From Larsenimonas salina (lineage in GTDB: Bacteria > Pseudomonadota > Gammaproteobacteria > Pseudomonadales > Halomonadaceae): a DNA stretch of 64,000 nt. Within the stretch, counting starts at the first letter, position 1, and the number at the start of each line of letters is the position of its first letter. The DNA lies in NCBI RefSeq assembly GCF_023736155.1, contig NZ_JAMLJJ010000001.1, positions 372,001 to 436,000 on the forward strand, given 5' to 3'. Positions 4,728-16,714 of this stretch are shown here, piece by piece. The translations under genes and the position numbers were made by a program. The notes under the pieces are model-generated. The model searched no databases and was not told where the DNA came from. It worked only from the letters and a program-made list of their open reading frames with translations.

Positions 4728-5648
4728 TCAGGCGGTGTGCTCGGAGCGAAACCCGTCCAGCCGAACCCAGCCGTCTTCTTCAGCCGGTGAGTTCATGATC
4801 AGCCCTTGCGCTTCATAGGCGCTCATGACGCTGTCGGCCTGGTGCGCAAGAATGCCTGACAAGGCAATCAGTCCGCCCGGGGCGACGCTGCCGGCAATCT
4901 GGGGGGCGAGCTCGATCAGCGGCGCGGCCAGAATGTTGGCGATCACGATCGGGTAGTGCGCAGACGGGGCGTGTTCGGGGTAGTGAAGTTCGAACCGGTC
5001 GTCCTCGATTTGATTGCGCTGCGCATTGTCGCGGCTGGCCTGAAGGGCCTGGGGATCGATGTCGGTACCTACCGCATGAGCTGCGCCGAGTTTCAGGGCT
5101 GCAATCGCCAGAATGCCTGAGCCACAGCCGACGTCGAGTACATGCTGATTCGCTAGACGATTCTGGGTGGCAAGACTATCGAGCCAGCGCATACACAGCG
5201 CCGTGGTCGGGTGGGTTCCGGTGCCAAAGGCAAGGCCTGGGTCCAGCAGAAGGTTGACGGCCTCGGGGTCCGGGGCCTCGTGCCAGCTTGGGACAATCCA
5301 GAGCCGGCTGCCCATCTGCATCGGATGGAAGTTGTCCATCCAGGCCCGGTTCCAGTCCTGATCATCGAGGATTTCATAGGTAATGACCGGGCAGGGTTCG
5401 CCGGGCTGGGCGATGGACCAGCCGGCGGCCACACGGGCGAGCATGGCGTCGGCGCCTTCGAGATCATCATAGAGACCGGTCAGTACGGTCTGGTTCCAGA
5501 GCGGCGTCGAGCCTCGCTCGGGCTCGAACACCGGCGTGTCCTCGGCGTCCTCGAGTGTGATGGCGTTGGCGCCTTCTGCGAGAAGCAGCTCTTCGAGCGG
5601 TTCCGCGTGTTCGGGGGGGATATGGGCTTTGAGTTGTAGCCAGGGCAT
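4728..5648 (-). CDS. prmA: Ribosomal protein L11 methyltransferase
   Basis: PrmA trimethylates ribosomal protein L11 using S-adenosylmethionine. The 306-residue protein has the N-terminal L11-recognition domain and the C-terminal Rossmann methyltransferase domain with VLDVGCGSGILAIAALKLGA (motif I) and the NILAAPL motif. FGTGTHPTT, typical of the family, precedes motif I. It is downstream of accBC, but a strong terminator at 5673-5696 separates them, so prmA probably has its own promoter or relies on read-through. Confidence 0.97.
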   Translation of the reverse strand: MPWLQLKAHIPPEHAEPLEELLLAEGANAITLEDAEDTPVFEPERGSTPLWNQTVLTGLYDDLEGADAMLARVAAGWSIAQPGEPCPVITYEILDDQDWNRAWMDNFHPMQMGSRLWIVPSWHEAPDPEAVNLLLDPGLAFGTGTHPTTALCMRWLDSLATQNRLANQHVLDVGCGSGILAIAALKLGAAHAVGTDIDPQALQASRDNAQRNQIEDDRFELHYPEHAPSAHYPIVIANILAAPLIELAPQIAGSVAPGGLIALSGILAHQADSVMSAYEAQGLIMNSPAEEDGWVRLDGFRSEHTA

Positions 5649-5672
5649 GGGGCAAATCCTGAGTGCTCAAAC

Positions 5673-5696
5673 AAAAAAAGGGCGATGCAATCGCCC
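5673..5696 (-). terminator. Terminator between accC and prmA
   Basis: On the minus strand GGGCGAT and ATCGCCC form a perfect 7-bp stem around a three-base loop, followed by seven Ts. It lies between the accC stop (5719) and the prmA start (5648). Confidence 0.85.
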
Positions 5697-5718
5697 TCAT
5701 GATCCACTGGTGCCGGCG

Positions 5719-7062
<1,344 letters not shown>

Positions 7063-7080
7063 GATGGACCCTATGCCGTC

Positions 7081-7551
7081 TTAGGAAATGATGATCAATG
7101 GCTGATCGAATTCGACCGGCTCGCCGTCTTCCACAAGAATGGCCTCGATGGTGCCGTCTTTGTCGGCCTCGATCTGGTTCATCATCTTCATGGCCTCGAC
7201 GATGCAGATGACGTCGCCTTTCTTGACGCTGTGACCGATCTCGACGAACGGCTTGGCGCCCGGGGCGGGGGAGCGATAGAAGGTACCGACCATGGGCGAA
7301 AGCAGCTCATGGCCTGCAGGCTGTGCCGGTGCGCTTGGCTCTTCGGTCGCCACGGCCTGAGGCTGTTGCGCCTGTTGAGGGGCGGGCGCCTGCTGGGGGT
7401 AATATCCGCCGGCCATGGGCGCGCCGTATTGCGGTGCATTGCCCATGTTTCGACTGATACGAACGGACTCCTCGCCTTCCTGAATCTCGATTTCACTGAT
7501 GTTGGATTCTTCCAGAAGTTCGATCAGTTTCTTGACCTTGCGAATGTCCAT
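7081..7551 (-). CDS. accB: Acetyl-CoA carboxylase, biotin carboxyl carrier protein
   Basis: The 156-residue BCCP carries biotin between the carboxylase and transferase subunits. The C-terminal biotinyl domain has the canonical [10 protein letters not shown], in which the lysine is biotinylated, and the thumb-containing stretch before it ([18 protein letters not shown]). A Pro/Ala/Gln-rich linker joins this to the N-terminal helix. It heads the accBC transcript. The roughly 200 bases between it and dsbD hold its promoter and leader. Confidence 0.98.
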
Positions 7552-7760
7552 AGAGCATATCCTGGCTGTTTAAGACGTGAATGGCCGCATGAATCGACCG
7601 ATGACATGATGAGGTGCGATGCGCTGTTAACCTTATCCTGTTTCGACACGATCACATCATGATCATGCAAGATAACGTGCAAAGCAGTTGTTGGCGGATT
7701 TTGCAGAAAAAACGAGAGTGTGTCCAGTCTGGCACAAAAGGTTAGTAAACACCGTTTGGT

Positions 7761-9820: not shown

Positions 9821-10357
9821 TCAGCGTGCGTCGTTCTGGTACGCGGCGACGGATTTTTCGATGGCTTTCTTGGCCGCGTCGGCGTTGTCCCAGGACTCGA
9901 CCTTGACCCACTTGCCTTTCTCGAGATCCTTGTAGTTCTCGAAGAAATGGGCGATCTGCTGGCGGAGAAGCTCGGGCAGGTCGGTTATTTCATGAACGTC
10001 GTCATAAAGAGCGCTCAGTTTTTCATGCGGGACACAGACAAGCTTGGCATCTTCGCCGGCTTCGTCGGTCATGTTGAGTACGCCGACCGGGCGAGCGCGG
10101 ATGACAGAGCCTGGCTGGACCGGATACGGCGTGACGACGAGCGCGTCGAGGGGGTCGCCGTCATCGGCCAGAGTGTTGGGGATAAAGCCGTAGTTGGCCG
10201 GGTAGAACATGGGGGTCGCCATGAAACGGTCGACGAGCAGCGCGTCCATTTCCTTGTCAATTTCGTACTTGATGGGCGCGTGATTGGCGGGAATCTCGAT
10301 CGCTACGTAAATGTCGTTCGGAAGGTCTTTCCCGGCCGGAATCTTGTCGAAACTCAT
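9821..10357 (-). CDS. ppa: Inorganic pyrophosphatase, family I
   Basis: This soluble Mg2+-dependent enzyme hydrolyses pyrophosphate to phosphate and so pulls biosynthetic reactions forward. The 178-residue product matches family I: the YEIDKE start of the core, the substrate loop [24 protein letters not shown] containing the DxDPxD aspartates, and a C-terminal [16 protein letters not shown] block. It is divergent from the PP2C/kinase-like gene and about 2 kb from a PPi-dependent phosphofructokinase, so two PPi-consuming enzymes sit in one neighbourhood. Confidence 0.98.
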
Positions 10358-10561
10358 GGGTGAGTCCTTGGTCTGGTCAATAGAATACAGCGTTAAAGTA
10401 GAAGGAATTATACGAATTGCCCATCCCGATTACCAATAGGCTGCAAGGATTGTTACGCTTTGGCACAATTTTGTGCATTGCATCAAACGGCGACTCAACG
10501 CGCCCGCCCGAATGCTTTACCATAACAACAACTTCAAGCTGTACGCACCGTGAGACGCTTT

Positions 10562-12298
10562 ATGGAGCACGCCATCCAACTGAGTTACGGCCAGGCCTTC
10601 GTGGCGACCGACAAGCGCCACCATCGCTCCTCGATGGCGGTTCAGGTGCCCGTCGATGACACCTTGGTGTCTCAGGGCGCTTGTGCGCTCATTGCCGATT
10701 CCACCTCGAAAAACGCCATTGCGCGTCAGGCCGGGGATCTATCGATTCGCGGGTTTCTTGCCGATTATTACTCGACGCCTGAACACTGGGATGTAAAAAC
10801 CGCTGCGACCCGGGTATTGCGCGCTCTTAACGGGTGGTGCTTCAGCCAAAGCCGCTTCGTCAAGGGCGGTGGGTATGTCAGTTCATTGTCGGCGCTGGTG
10901 CTCAAGGAGCGCCAGGCCCATCTGTTTCATGCCGGTGACACGCTGGTGTTTCGGCTGCGTGGCGCCGAGTTCGAGCAGATTTCCCGCGATCACGTCACCG
11001 ACATCGGCGGCTACCTTTATCCTTCCCGCGCACTCGGCATGGACGCAAGCGTTGATATCGATTATCTGACGCTGCCCCTCAAGCAGGGCGATATTTTCCT
11101 GTTCACCACTCAGGCCGTGCGCGGAACGCTGTTGCCGTCGGATTACGTCAGTGAAATTCGACGGCATGCGCACTCGCTTGACGAGGCGTGTCGGTATTTG
11201 GCGAAAGCCGCTGCCGAGCGGGCAAGCGAGCGCGGCTATGACGGTCATTCCTTCTGCTTTCAGATGGTGCGGGTCGACCAGCTGCCCGAAGAGCGAGTCG
11301 AGGCGCCCAATCTGCATTATGGCAAGCTGCCGATTCCGCCGGAGTTGAATGATGGTGATCGTTTCGAAGGGTTCGAGGTGCTCGAAGGGTTATCGCCACG
11401 GGGCAAGGCGCGCGTCTATCGGGTTCGAGATATTGACAGCGGTCAGCATCTGATCATGAAAACGCCCAGCCCCGAACTTGCCCTCAAGGACACGTATCTG
11501 AAGCACTTCATGCTTCAGCAGTGGGTGGCCGAACGAATCAACTCGCCGTTTATCGTCAAATCGGTCGCTCAAAAGCGCCCGCGGCGCTATCTCTACTACC
11601 TGATGGAAAACGTGGAAGGAGAGCGGCTGAGCACCTGGCTCGAGCGTCATCCAAACGCCACGCTTGCCCAGCGCCTCGACATCGCCCAGCAGCTTTGCAA
11701 GGCCGTTCATGCGCTTAATCGCAAGAACGTACTTCACCAGCGGATCTGCCCCAGCAACATCATGCTCGATCAACATGATCAGGTGATTCTGATTGACTTC
11801 GGGACCTGTCATTTCCTCGAGCAGGACAGTCAGGAAACCGCGCGGGAGCTGGTCCGGGAGGTCGGTCTCACGCCGCACAGCGCGCCTGAGTATGCGCTCG
11901 ATGGCAATATCAGCCGGCGCAGTGATCAGTACTCACTGGCCTCGGTGATCTACTGGATGATTGCAGGGCATCTGCCCTATGGGGAGCGTGTGCTGTCTGT
12001 CAAACGCGAAACTGACCTGGAGGCAATGGTATATACCCCATTGAGTACGTCTGGATCAGTGCTGCCACCGGTGCTCGACGAAACGCTCGAACGGGCCTTG
12101 ATGCCGAAGAAACCGTTGCGGTTTCGGCGCTTGTCGGAGCTGGTTTACGGGCTCAAGCTGACACGTCAGGCCATGCATGGCCCCGTGGAGGAGGACTCGT
12201 TGGATGTGGACCCTGCCTCGCTTGGAGACCCGGCTCGGCGCTGGAAATGGCTGACCGGTCTTTTGATCATTGCGCTGATCGCGAGTTTCTGGTTATAG
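10562..12298 (+). CDS. PP2C-phosphatase/protein-kinase fusion, apparently catalytically degenerate, membrane-anchored
   Basis: The 578-residue product has a PP2C-like domain (about 1-230), a protein-kinase-like domain (about 260-535) and one C-terminal membrane helix (WLTGLLIIALIASFWL). It is related to the bifunctional Ser/Thr phosphatase/kinase family. Key residues look changed. In the PP2C half the usual IADG motif reads IADS (Asp46 kept), and the later DG motif reads TTQAV with Gln184 where a metal-binding Asp is expected. In the kinase half the HRD loop reads HQRICPSN (392-399), so the catalytic Asp is Arg394 and the usual Lys is Cys396, while Asn399 and the DFG Asp412 remain. By family rules both activities may be lost and the protein may be a signalling scaffold; this is inference. 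The ATG at 10562 was chosen; a GTG at 10550 is possible. Confidence 0.85.
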   Translation: MEHAIQLSYGQAFVATDKRHHRSSMAVQVPVDDTLVSQGACALIADSTSKNAIARQAGDLSIRGFLADYYSTPEHWDVKTAATRVLRALNGWCFSQSRFVKGGGYVSSLSALVLKERQAHLFHAGDTLVFRLRGAEFEQISRDHVTDIGGYLYPSRALGMDASVDIDYLTLPLKQGDIFLFTTQAVRGTLLPSDYVSEIRRHAHSLDEACRYLAKAAAERASERGYDGHSFCFQMVRVDQLPEERVEAPNLHYGKLPIPPELNDGDRFEGFEVLEGLSPRGKARVYRVRDIDSGQHLIMKTPSPELALKDTYLKHFMLQQWVAERINSPFIVKSVAQKRPRRYLYYLMENVEGERLSTWLERHPNATLAQRLDIAQQLCKAVHALNRKNVLHQRICPSNIMLDQHDQVILIDFGTCHFLEQDSQETARELVREVGLTPHSAPEYALDGNISRRSDQYSLASVIYWMIAGHLPYGERVLSVKRETDLEAMVYTPLSTSGSVLPPVLDETLERALMPKKPLRFRRLSELVYGLKLTRQAMHGPVEEDSLDVDPASLGDPARRWKWLTGLLIIALIASFWL

Positions 12299-12331: not shown

Positions 12332-13591
12332 TTACAGAGAGAACGGCGCCAGTTTCTGAGGAACGCCGACCAGCTTGAGCTGGGCGTAATCCGGCAGGCC
12401 GTTGACGTAGGGCGGCTCGTCTTCACCCTGAATCAGGGGCTCCAGGTAGTCGCGGCAGGCTTGCGTAATGCCGAAGCCGTCTTCACGGATGTACTCTTCC
12501 GGCATGAATTTTTCCTGATTGGCGACCTCGGACAGCGGTGCGTCGAAGATCGACCATTCAAACGGTGACTGATTGTCGCGACGGATAGCCGGCATTACGG
12601 CGTTCTTGCCTTCGATCGCGCACTCGACAGCGCGTACGCCGACGGCGTAGGCCTGTTCGACATCGACCTTGGACGCCAGATGGCGCGCCGAACGCTGAAG
12701 GTAGTCAGGCACGGACCAGTGGTACTTGTAGCCCAGATCCTGCTTGATCATGCCCGCAAGCGTCGGAGCGACGCCGCCGAGCTGGCGGTGGCCGAAGGCG
12801 TCGGTGTTGCCTGCGTCGGCCAGGAAGGTGCCGTCTTCGTAACGAACGCCTTCGGAGACCACGATCACGCAGTAGCCATACTGCTTGACGGTTTCGTCGA
12901 CCTTGCGCATGACCCGGCGGCGATCAAACGCGATCTCGGGAAACAGCACCATGTGTGGCGGTGCACCGCCTTCGCCACCGCCTAGGGCGCCGGACGCCGC
13001 GATCCAGCCGGCGTGGCGGCCCATCGCTTCCATGACGAACACCTTGGTGGAGGTAGCGCACATGGACAAAACGTCAAGCGCGGCTTCTCGTACCGAGGTG
13101 GCGATGTATTTGGCGACCGAGCCAAAGCCCGGCGAGCAATCGGTCAGCGGCAGGTCGTTATCGATGGTCTTTGGAACGTGAATGGCCTGAAGCGGATAGC
13201 CCATGCGCTCTGAGAGCTGGGAGACTTTCAGACAGGTATCTGCGCTGTCGCCGCCGCCGTTATAGAAGAAGTAACGGATGTTGTGGGCTTTAAAGACTTC
13301 GATCAGGCGCTCGTACTGGACGCGATGGGTGTCGATGTCCTTGAGTTTGTAGCGGCAGGAGCCGAATGCACCGCCTGGCGTATGACGAAGGGCGGCAATC
13401 GATTCATCGCTTTCTTCGCCGACGTCAATCAGATTCTCCGTCAAGGCGCCGATGATGCCATTGCGCCCGGCGTATAGCGTGCCGATCTTGTCACTGTGTT
13501 TGCGGCACGTTTCGATCACGCCACATGCGCTGGCGTTGATTACTGATGAAACGCCACCGGACTGCGCATAAAAGGCATTGTATCTGGTCAT
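12332..13591 (-). CDS. pfp: Pyrophosphate-dependent 6-phosphofructokinase
   Basis: This 419-residue PfkA-superfamily enzyme interconverts fructose 6-phosphate and fructose 1,6-bisphosphate. Two positions decide the phosphoryl donor. Where ATP enzymes read GGDGS this reads GGGDSA (Asp at the Gly104 position), and where ATP enzymes read PGTIDND this reads PKTIDNDL. Both substitutions are known to mark PPi use, which would make the step reversible. MGRHAGWIA (the usual MGR motif) and GGVAPTLAGM are also present. It converges on the PP2C/kinase-like gene and is divergent from mpl. Confidence 0.92.
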   Translation of the reverse strand: MTRYNAFYAQSGGVSSVINASACGVIETCRKHSDKIGTLYAGRNGIIGALTENLIDVGEESDESIAALRHTPGGAFGSCRYKLKDIDTHRVQYERLIEVFKAHNIRYFFYNGGGDSADTCLKVSQLSERMGYPLQAIHVPKTIDNDLPLTDCSPGFGSVAKYIATSVREAALDVLSMCATSTKVFVMEAMGRHAGWIAASGALGGGEGGAPPHMVLFPEIAFDRRRVMRKVDETVKQYGYCVIVVSEGVRYEDGTFLADAGNTDAFGHRQLGGVAPTLAGMIKQDLGYKYHWSVPDYLQRSARHLASKVDVEQAYAVGVRAVECAIEGKNAVMPAIRRDNQSPFEWSIFDAPLSEVANQEKFMPEEYIREDGFGITQACRDYLEPLIQGEDEPPYVNGLPDYAQLKLVGVPQKLAPFSL

Positions 13592-15148: not shown

Positions 15149-15183
15149 TTGACCGGCGGGAAGGTACCCTAGACCGGCGGGAA
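15149..15183. repeat. 13-bp direct repeat across the mpl / DedA-PAP2 junction
   Basis: GACCGGCGGGAAG occurs twice, 22 bases apart. The right copy encodes the last residues of the DedA-PAP2 protein. It looks like a small tandem duplication. Confidence 0.6.
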
Positions 15184-16623
15184 GAACAGTACACGGGTGG
15201 CCATCAGAAGTACGGTGGCTGCCCCCAGCGCCTTCCAGGGCAGTTGGGTGATTGGCCGGTAGGCAAACCGGTGGTAGCTGATGCGCACGACCGCGCACAT
15301 CGCGAATCCGAGCAGGGTGCCGCCGAGTAGGTCGCTGACCCAATGAACCCCCATCATCAGGCGTGACCACGCCATCAGCGCGATCAAAAGCGTTGCACCG
15401 CAGTAGATCCAGTGGCGCCGTGCCGGGCTTTTAACGCCGTCTGCCATGAAGGCCGCTGCCAGGCCGTAAACGACCACCGCGCCCGAGGTGTGCGCGCTCG
15501 GAAATGAAAATGAGCCCTCCAGGTAGTCCGGTGTCATCGGGCGAGGTCTACCGACCCAGGCCTTGAACAGGATATTGGCAAGCCCAATGCCGCCGATGGC
15601 GAGCGCCCAATGGAGCAGGGCCGTGCCATAGCGCTGCCAGATGAGCCACAGTGTCCAGGGGGCTAGCAAAATGACGATGCCGAGTTTGTCGCCGACTTTT
15701 GCAAGCACCAGCGCCAGTTGAGATGCCAGCGGCACATCGAGCGATTTGAAAAACGCGTTGGCGTTGTGATCGAGCGCGAACGGCGCCGGATGATGCGCGA
15801 CAATCACTGCAAGTACGCCAAAGCCTGTCGCTGAGGCAAGAAAAAGCGTCAGAGACGGTATGGGAGGCGCGCCGCCGGGGACGTTCATTCGAAATGAAAG
15901 CCAGGTGCGCCGGCCCCATTTCGAGCGCCTGGCGCCTGTCAGCGCAAGCCGGTAGAGCGCGCCCATGCGCTCTGCGTGCTGGCGGCCCCAGGTAAACATC
16001 CACGCCAGAAAAATCAAGACGCCGCCAAGGGCAAGAAGCCAGCCGAAACTCTCCTGATATGGGCCAAGAAACGCCTTCCAGGTTCGACCCAGATAATACC
16101 CCGGCAACACGTAGACGGGCGCCCAGGCAAGCGCCGAGGCGACGTTGACCACAAAAAATCGGGTCGAGGGCATGTTGCACATGCCGGCAATAAGCGGGAT
16201 AACCGGGCGAAGCGGGCCGATGAAGCGGCCGAGCACGACGGAGGTGGCGCCGTAGCGCTCGAAAAATCGTTGCCCTTTTTCCAGTGCCTCAGGATAACGA
16301 CTCAGCGGCCATACCGAGGCGACCCGGTGGCGATAGCGGTGGCCGAGCCAGAAGCTGATCGCATCCCCGAGCACGGCGCCTGCGGCGGCAAAGGCCAGGG
16401 CAAGGGGGACCGACATCGAGTCGTGGCCGGCCAGTGAGGCGAGCGCGGCAATGACGACCACGCCGGGGAAGGCAAGCCCGACCAGGGCAAGCGATTCCAG
16501 TAGTGCCACCAGCCCCAGCGCGGCAAACAACAGAAGTGGGTCTCGGGCCAGAGGCTCGAGCCAGTTCATGACATCCATGTGATTGCGTATCCAAACGTTT
16601 GGCAGAGGTGGCCATTCTGCCAT
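15169..16623 (-). CDS. DedA family / PAP2 phosphatase fusion membrane protein
   Basis: This 484-residue membrane protein joins two enzyme-like modules. Residues about 1-200 are DedA/SNARE-associated: FWLGHRYR, the RFIGPLRPVIPLIAGM signature and a re-entrant helix. DedA proteins translocate lipid phosphates such as undecaprenyl phosphate. Residues about 290-480 are a PAP2 phosphatase with KAWVGRPRP, the catalytic PSAHTSG and SRLMMGVHWVSDLLGG, covering the three acid-phosphatase motifs. The pairing suggests dephosphorylation and flipping of a lipid carrier in the inner membrane. The ATG at 16623 has AGGG upstream; MDVMNW further in could also start. It is divergent from proA. Confidence 0.9.
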   Translation of the reverse strand: MAEWPPLPNVWIRNHMDVMNWLEPLARDPLLLFAALGLVALLESLALVGLAFPGVVVIAALASLAGHDSMSVPLALAFAAAGAVLGDAISFWLGHRYRHRVASVWPLSRYPEALEKGQRFFERYGATSVVLGRFIGPLRPVIPLIAGMCNMPSTRFFVVNVASALAWAPVYVLPGYYLGRTWKAFLGPYQESFGWLLALGGVLIFLAWMFTWGRQHAERMGALYRLALTGARRSKWGRRTWLSFRMNVPGGAPPIPSLTLFLASATGFGVLAVIVAHHPAPFALDHNANAFFKSLDVPLASQLALVLAKVGDKLGIVILLAPWTLWLIWQRYGTALLHWALAIGGIGLANILFKAWVGRPRPMTPDYLEGSFSFPSAHTSGAVVVYGLAAAFMADGVKSPARRHWIYCGATLLIALMAWSRLMMGVHWVSDLLGGTLLGFAMCAVVRISYHRFAYRPITQLPWKALGAATVLLMATRVLFFPPV

Positions 16624-16714
16624 AGGCAACCCTGCGTATTGTCATTTTTACTTGTACAAGGCGCTGCCTTATAGTGGGTTTTCAATTATTCAAAAACATC
16701 GGTGAAGGTGCTTC

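Follow-up and report, generated by a model that had tools for sequence, protein, structure and literature searches.

Comparison across the Halomonadaceae shows that this family carries a predicted tail-anchored fusion of a PP2C-like and a kinase-like half, present family-wide, in which residues of both active sites are gone in every aligned orthologue. The gene studied lies in 64,000 nucleotides of Larsenimonas salina (contig NZ_JAMLJJ010000001.1, positions 372,001 to 436,000), and this whole stretch is called the window. An earlier note, made from its letters, had proposed a pseudo-enzyme; comparison with orthologues and intact homologues, a phylogenetic tree, and dN/dS ratios argue strongly for that reading. 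We consider it probable that a signalling enzyme of a nitrate gene cluster, after its partner genes and its two active sites had been lost, became a tail-anchored, non-catalytic binding protein.

The 578-aa reading frame begins with an ATG at 10562 and runs through a stop codon ending at 12298 on the plus strand; an alternative GTG start lies 12 bases upstream of this ATG. A C-terminal hydrophobic segment passes the hydropathy threshold in 101 of 102 orthologues and ends a median of one residue from the C-terminus. The AlphaFold model of the full-length protein has a pLDDT of 72.1 and a pTM of 0.55. The extent of the gene, the PP2C/kinase fusion, and the C-terminal membrane helix had all been proposed beforehand and were confirmed. 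Motif names and residue roles follow general usage for PP2C phosphatases and protein kinases.

Table 1. Features of the pseudo-enzyme locus (positions in the window; residues numbered from the ATG)
Feature	Position	Strand	Basis or remark
Gene, PP2C-like/kinase-like tail-anchored pseudo-enzyme, 578 aa	10562..12298	+	ORF, Pfam, orthologue alignment
PP2C-like half, residues 1-240	10562..11281	+	PstP/tPphA-like predicted fold; motif-1 and motif-8 Asp gone, Asp46 retained
Former PP2C motif 1, residues 21-23	10622..10630	+	HRS here; NED in intact homologues
Former PP2C motif 2, residues 45-47 (A-D-S)	10694..10702	+	Asp retained, Gly gone
Former PP2C motif 8, residues 183-185 (T-Q-A)	11108..11116	+	Asp replaced by Gln184
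Kinase-like half, residues 266-532	11357..12157	+	beta3 Lys300, Asn399, and Asp412 retained
Gln319 where the alphaC Glu is expected	11516..11518	+	Alignment
HQR (residues 392-394) where HQD/HRD is expected	11735..11743	+	Arg394 replaces the catalytic Asp
Predicted C-terminal membrane helix/tail anchor, residues 557-577	12230..12292	+	Model, hydropathy
ppa, head-to-head neighbour	9821..10357	-	Identity to ppa of related loci; NCBIfam match of the homologue in L141
pfp (diphosphate--fructose-6-phosphate 1-phosphotransferase), convergent neighbour	12332..13591	-	NCBIfam

Residues were compared among 102 distinct orthologues, which represent all 24 genus codes of the family, and 25 intact homologues, comprising 20 from outside the family and five from a second gene inside it. 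The alignment omitted nine pieces shorter than 480 aa: a partial orthologue (L135), a partial paralogue (L076), five pieces of a broken copy in L069, and one short piece each in L059 and L077. The orthologue in L069 (genome G222) is split over several frames with stops in an assembly that is 86% complete and 6% contaminated, and its disruption is probably an assembly error rather than a real loss. Split matches to the pseudo-enzyme were also seen in G031.

The kinase-like half is readily recognised as a Hanks-type Ser/Thr kinase. Pfam matched the window protein to PF00069 (Pkinase) at 87.6 bits (cut-off 31.7) and gave no PP2C match, and the predicted fold is bilobal and resembles PknA/PknB (Foldseek E 8.8e-14). 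Alignment with PknB places LHQRICPSN opposite IHRDVKPAN, confirming the kinase register; the HQRICPSN loop thus has Arg394 for the catalytic Asp and Cys396 for the Lys, exactly as first read, and Asn399 and Asp412 do remain. As far as the alignments to PknB and the 25 intact homologues reach, the catalytic Asp does not lie elsewhere. The HRD Asp is present in none of the 102 orthologues, compared to all 25 intact homologues, and its position is occupied by Q (35), R (18), N (12), G (10), A (9), H (8), L (6), S (3), or I (1). Likewise, the alphaC Glu of all 25 intact homologues is Gln in all 102 orthologues. The window protein consequently lacks both the HRD Asp and the beta3 Lys-alphaC Glu pair of an active kinase; the DFG Asp and the catalytic-loop Asn are both in place. 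Across the orthologues, Lys300 is retained in 100, Asn399 in 95, and Asp412 in 101 of 102. From these alignments, the kinase half looks like a nucleotide binder minus its catalytic base, and nucleotide binding would not be strictly required or universal, since a few rows lack Lys300, Asn399, or Asp412. Further erosion of the pseudokinase was seen in L068 (G005), where Lys300 is Ala and Asn399 is Ser, and in L057 (G274), where Asn399 is Ser; these are the two genomes in which no PFK match was found (see below).

The PP2C-like half is predicted to keep its fold. Its AlphaFold model (pLDDT 77.7, pTM 0.81) matches PstP (1txo_A; Foldseek E 1.7e-12, TM 0.66/0.69) as well as tPphA, as expected of a PP2C (PPM) fold. 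At the level of profiles, no Pfam match, to PP2C or otherwise, was found for this half of the window protein at E ≤ 0.01, and an NCBIfam Stp1/PP2C match was weak (33.2 bits, cut-off 230). Four intact homologues matched PF13672 at 52.9–61.6 bits (cut-off 24), and the orthologue in L018 scored 18.1, below that cut-off. The motif-1 Asp is found in 0/102 orthologues vs. 25/25 intact homologues, the NED of the latter being H21-R22-S23 in the window protein. The motif-8 Asp shows the same division (0/102, with Gln in 92 and Arg in 10, vs. 25/25). The motif-2 Asp, D46 in the window, is retained in 101 of 102 orthologues, and the next Gly is gone in all 102. At motif 11, the DN of intact homologues is H229-S230 in the window protein; this column holds Asp or Glu in 76 of 102 orthologues, so the ligand is often retained, with His in the window. 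The window protein therefore lacks the full set of acidic residues of motifs 1, 2, 8, and 11 that marks an active PP2C and, given the loss of the motif-1 and motif-8 Asp, two or more of the usual metal-centre residues are missing from each orthologue. Among the substitutions first listed, Gln184 in TTQAV and the retained GDT (residues 125-127) are as written; the reading of IADS for IADG stands insofar as S47 replaces the Gly, but the Asp itself (D46) is retained. The list as a whole was correct but had missed the losses at H21-R22-S23, Q319, and H229-S230.

We judge it unlikely that the protein is changed rather than dead, with one pocket having gained a new catalytic activity, be it a different transfer reaction for the kinase half or a hydrolase. 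Such a hydrolase could draw on the retained Asp46 together with the clade-specific R22, S23, and Q184; Lys300, Asn399, and Asp412 are mostly retained; and R22, S23, M25, Q319, and an RGY stretch (residues 224-226) are clade-specific and fixed or nearly so. There is also precedent, given that SidJ and SelO are named as pseudokinases with new activities in the available portion of one survey (PMC12599244). However, the nine different residues at the HRD position would be odd for an active site, a few lineages drop Lys300, Asn399, or Asp412, and the alignments demonstrate no alternative catalytic constellation.

We also considered whether the gene is a decaying pseudogene on its way out, given that several catalytic residues are missing across the two halves; this hardly seems credible. 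The family of loci is Halomonadaceae, including Larsenimonas suaedae at 98% protein identity to the window's genome. A match (E ≤ 0.001) was found in 273 of 275 family genomes, including all 254 good genomes and all 24 genera. The best match was below 1e-150 (by eye) in 265 of the 275, and the other ten genomes are all less than 90% complete; for comparison, the best matches of the intact in-family paralogue are about 1e-98 to 1e-90. An order-level search covered 390 genomes, including 18 family members; the best matches of these 18 scored at least 902 bits, and the top score outside the family was 567 bits. A lesion peculiar to one strain was ruled out, since it is common to 102 orthologues. 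The alignment confirms that the residue losses reflect neither chance nor sequencing error, the HRD, motif-1, and motif-8 Asp each standing at 0/102 vs. 25/25. That the same residues are gone in 102 orthologues from all 24 genus codes, while 25 intact homologues retain them, argues against decay.

Selection on the gene was assessed from dN/dS in 13 pairs. With dS saturated in two of them, the other 11 gave ratios of 0.027–0.175, far below 1 in an open frame. Neighbouring genes served for comparison; the names mpl, proA, dsbD, accB, and accC were assigned by eye or follow general usage. Values for the pseudo-enzyme were about in the accC range; in most pairs they exceeded those of ppa, and they were lower than those of dsbD. 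The highest pair (L009/L010, 0.175) was also high in pfp (0.163) and accC (0.121). These ratios show a reading frame kept under strong purifying selection.

A tree of 62 rows was built from 31 of the 102 orthologues, the 20 out-of-family and five in-family intact homologues, and six others, with L159, meant as an outgroup row, left out; it was rooted on three f21 rows, which we take to be Pseudomonas-like. The 31 orthologues form a clade with support of 100/100 on a long stem (0.95 changes per column). This clade, the 20 out-of-family intact rows, and L156 and L157 share a branch supported at 92/79, below the starred level, and the branch does not tie the pseudo-enzyme clade to ppa-linked copies in particular. 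The in-family intact paralogue does not join the clade. The topology is consistent with a single loss of both sites before the family radiated, which is its simplest reading and, being one ancient event, again speaks against ongoing decay.

The two halves differ modestly in conservation. Mean pairwise identity in the PP2C half was 0.656 among 23 pseudo-enzyme representatives vs. 0.616 among 20 intact rows, whereas for the kinase half it was 0.512 vs. 0.552. The five in-family intact rows (0.577 for the PP2C half, 0.561 for the kinase half) did not sharpen the contrast between halves. These figures are at most a hint that the PP2C-like half may carry the present function, the shift in identity being modest.

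We then compared gene neighbourhoods. In the family, ppa is the divergent, directly facing neighbour in 100 of 102 loci, the two exceptions (L066 and L068) having no ppa within ~1.4 kb upstream, and pfp is convergent and no more than 2.5 kb away in 63 (flanks mostly ~1.5 kb). No narK was found in any of the 102 loci, most with ~1.5 kb flanks. Intact relatives were surveyed in 20 out-of-family regions, which are the best-scoring copies rather than a random draw; three of them (L138, L144, and L145) lie on short contigs, L140 covers 10 kb, and L137 reaches its contig end, such that absences there say little. The intact gene adjoins narK in 16 of the 20, and both nirB and nirD were detected in 12; pfp, ppa, and mpl were found in four, four, and five regions, respectively, in orientations that match the window, i.e., mpl co-oriented with the kinase gene, and pfp and ppa opposite. 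All four regions with ppa (L139, L140, L141, and L153) have the order kinase, narK, then divergently nirB, nirD, and ppa, and they come from two lineages (L139, L141, and L153 from f24; L140 from f45). NCBIfam confirmed the gene names in L141 and those of nirB and nirD in L140 as well; genes of the remaining loci were named by BLAST identity. These regions show that the nearest intact relatives, in other families of the order, lie mostly in a nitrate/nitrite gene set, and the window's family has the same gene frame minus narK-nirB-nirD.

Since some intact copies in other families also have ppa, pfp, or mpl nearby, the ppa/pfp neighbourhood would be older than the loss of activity, and by this comparison it looks inherited. 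On the simplest account, adjacency to ppa may be the scar of a deleted narK-nirBD block; with the ppa-linked order known from four regions in two family codes, events may also have run in reverse. Co-selection could explain the adjacency in 100 of 102 loci. In the family today, a close NarK (E ≤ 1e-60) was found in one of 25 genomes, L174 (G134), and NirB scored above cut-off in 17 of 25, always away from the pseudo-enzyme locus. The idea that retention of the gene tracks nitrite assimilation was rejected, given that the 8 of 25 genomes without NirB, the window's genome included, keep it. A shared regulatory motif upstream was likewise discarded: in 12 sequences, a single clearly conserved block lies between the gene and ppa, and it reads as the ppa promoter. 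By eye, this is a minus-strand sigma-70-like promoter, TTGGTAA...TATAAT, in the window (10330-10450) and 11 related loci. Two other frames of the window drew our attention. A 708-aa open frame (5536-7662, plus strand) runs antisense over accB and accC and is most likely a codon-usage by-product of GC-rich genes, and a 486-aa ORF (15169-16629, minus strand) appears by eye to encode a DedA-type membrane protein fused to a PAP2-type phosphatase.

The earlier note had gone on to suggest a sensor or scaffold for the neighbouring pyrophosphate enzymes. A dedicated role of this kind for Ppa and Pfp would accord with the near-constant divergent ppa and the frequent convergent pfp, yet we regard it as improbable. 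The same neighbours stand beside some intact copies in other families. Moreover, a search of 35 family genomes with the PFK profile placed PFK within 6 kb of the pseudo-enzyme in 21 and farther away or on another contig in 12 (a different contig being counted as not close), and gave no match in two (G005 and G274); all 35 keep the pseudo-enzyme. These counts led us to reject an obligate pfp link. In addition, the annotated Pfp of Chromohalobacter salexigens, matched to the window's pfp by name only, acts as a fructose bisphosphatase in vivo according to the available portion of the report (PMC6692947). The suggestion of a scaffold is left unsupported, and the link of the pseudo-enzyme to pyrophosphate is weak.

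A partnership with, or inhibition of, the intact in-family PP2C/kinase paralogue seems very unlikely. Several family genomes do contain this second, intact protein, 31–33% identical (L071-L075), which could serve as the partner. In contrast, a search of the window's genome, covering PF00069 and PF13672 among kinase and phosphatase profiles, found no second copy, no further PF00069 match, and no PF13672 match, and the gene is nevertheless kept there; this makes a role as partner of another such kinase unlikely in that genome. The intact paralogue of L073 adjoins a gene of the formate/nitrite-transporter family (best match below the model cut-off), and in G024, G160, and G197 the paralogue lies within ~20 kb of nirB.

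With respect to known systems, PP2C and kinase fusions have been reported "for the first time" in Pseudomonas, in the words of the available portion of that paper (PMC1262709). By full-length homology to the 25 intact rows, domain order, and tail helix, the window protein belongs to this bacterial fusion family; the length is similar, and the difference is that the catalytic residues are intact in the 25 rows and gone from both sites in 102/102 here. The closest counterparts are the narK-linked intact fusions (L097-L108 and L136-L155), which cluster with the pseudo-enzyme clade (92/79) and in some loci share ppa, pfp, or mpl as neighbours in the same relative orientation; they differ in having intact active-site residues, with narK adjacent in 16/20 and nirB plus nirD in 12/20. 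PstP, tPphA, and other bacterial PP2C proteins are alike in predicted fold, but the motif-1 and motif-8 Asp are missing in all 102 orthologues here.

Seven bacterial pseudokinase families (ActPs1-3, GLW, CP1, DLHK, and DYD) are described in the available portion of PMC12599244, and the present protein is likewise a conserved bacterial pseudokinase. As described there, GLW proteins carry a membrane segment at the C-terminus, the motif GLW occupies their HRD position, and a bulky residue stands where the beta3 Lys would be; the window protein has HQR and Lys300. CP1 proteins are described as linked to COG3899 and without membrane segments; the window protein matches only kinase families in Pfam and has a predicted tail helix. 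The CP1 protein Q8F1M0 of Leptospira (VLIK, HKSLCPGN, DFS) combines an HRD lesion with a kept Lys and DFG Asp in the same source, and that combination is accordingly not unique to our protein. None of the seven families is described with a PP2C domain, and "PP2C" is absent from the main text of PMC12599244; these descriptions set the pseudo-enzyme apart from the seven families, the source classification of that work comprising 42. Among the matches listed in our literature search there was no paper on this protein or kind, which may bear another name. Judged by its alignments, the difference from what is known is a pseudokinase joined to a PP2C-like half that is also without its residues, conserved across a family.

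Taken together, we favour the origin of a non-catalytic binding protein from a nitrate-cluster enzyme. In the ancestor of the family, a narK-nirBD block would have been deleted from the locus, so that the kinase gene came to face ppa directly. The orphaned enzyme would then have lost catalysis and persisted as a non-catalytic protein. Anchored by its C-terminal helix, it may act through a bound partner; the PP2C-like half, the more constrained of the two, would do most of this binding, and the kinase-like half might hold a nucleotide in a structural or regulatory role. This partner could be something other than Ppa or Pfp. A bolder version, which we hold only tentatively and think doubtful as a whole, is that the orphan, with both activities gone, is now an indispensable, membrane-tethered reader of a phosphoprotein or nucleotide through its PP2C-like pocket, relied on by the whole family and founding a class of bacterial double pseudo-enzymes.

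Bacterial pseudokinases are described as "largely unexplored experimentally" in the available portion of PMC12599244. The locus also carries a warning, in that conserved neighbours such as ppa and pfp can reflect an inherited gene order and need not point to a shared function. If our reading is true, the family would provide a clean natural experiment, in which both sites were lost, apparently once, from a near-universal gene under strong selection, and the intact relatives with their gene context would show the origin of the dead fusion. As the gene is single-copy in the window's genome, which has no other PF00069 or PF13672 match, the role of a dead signalling enzyme would be directly testable there.
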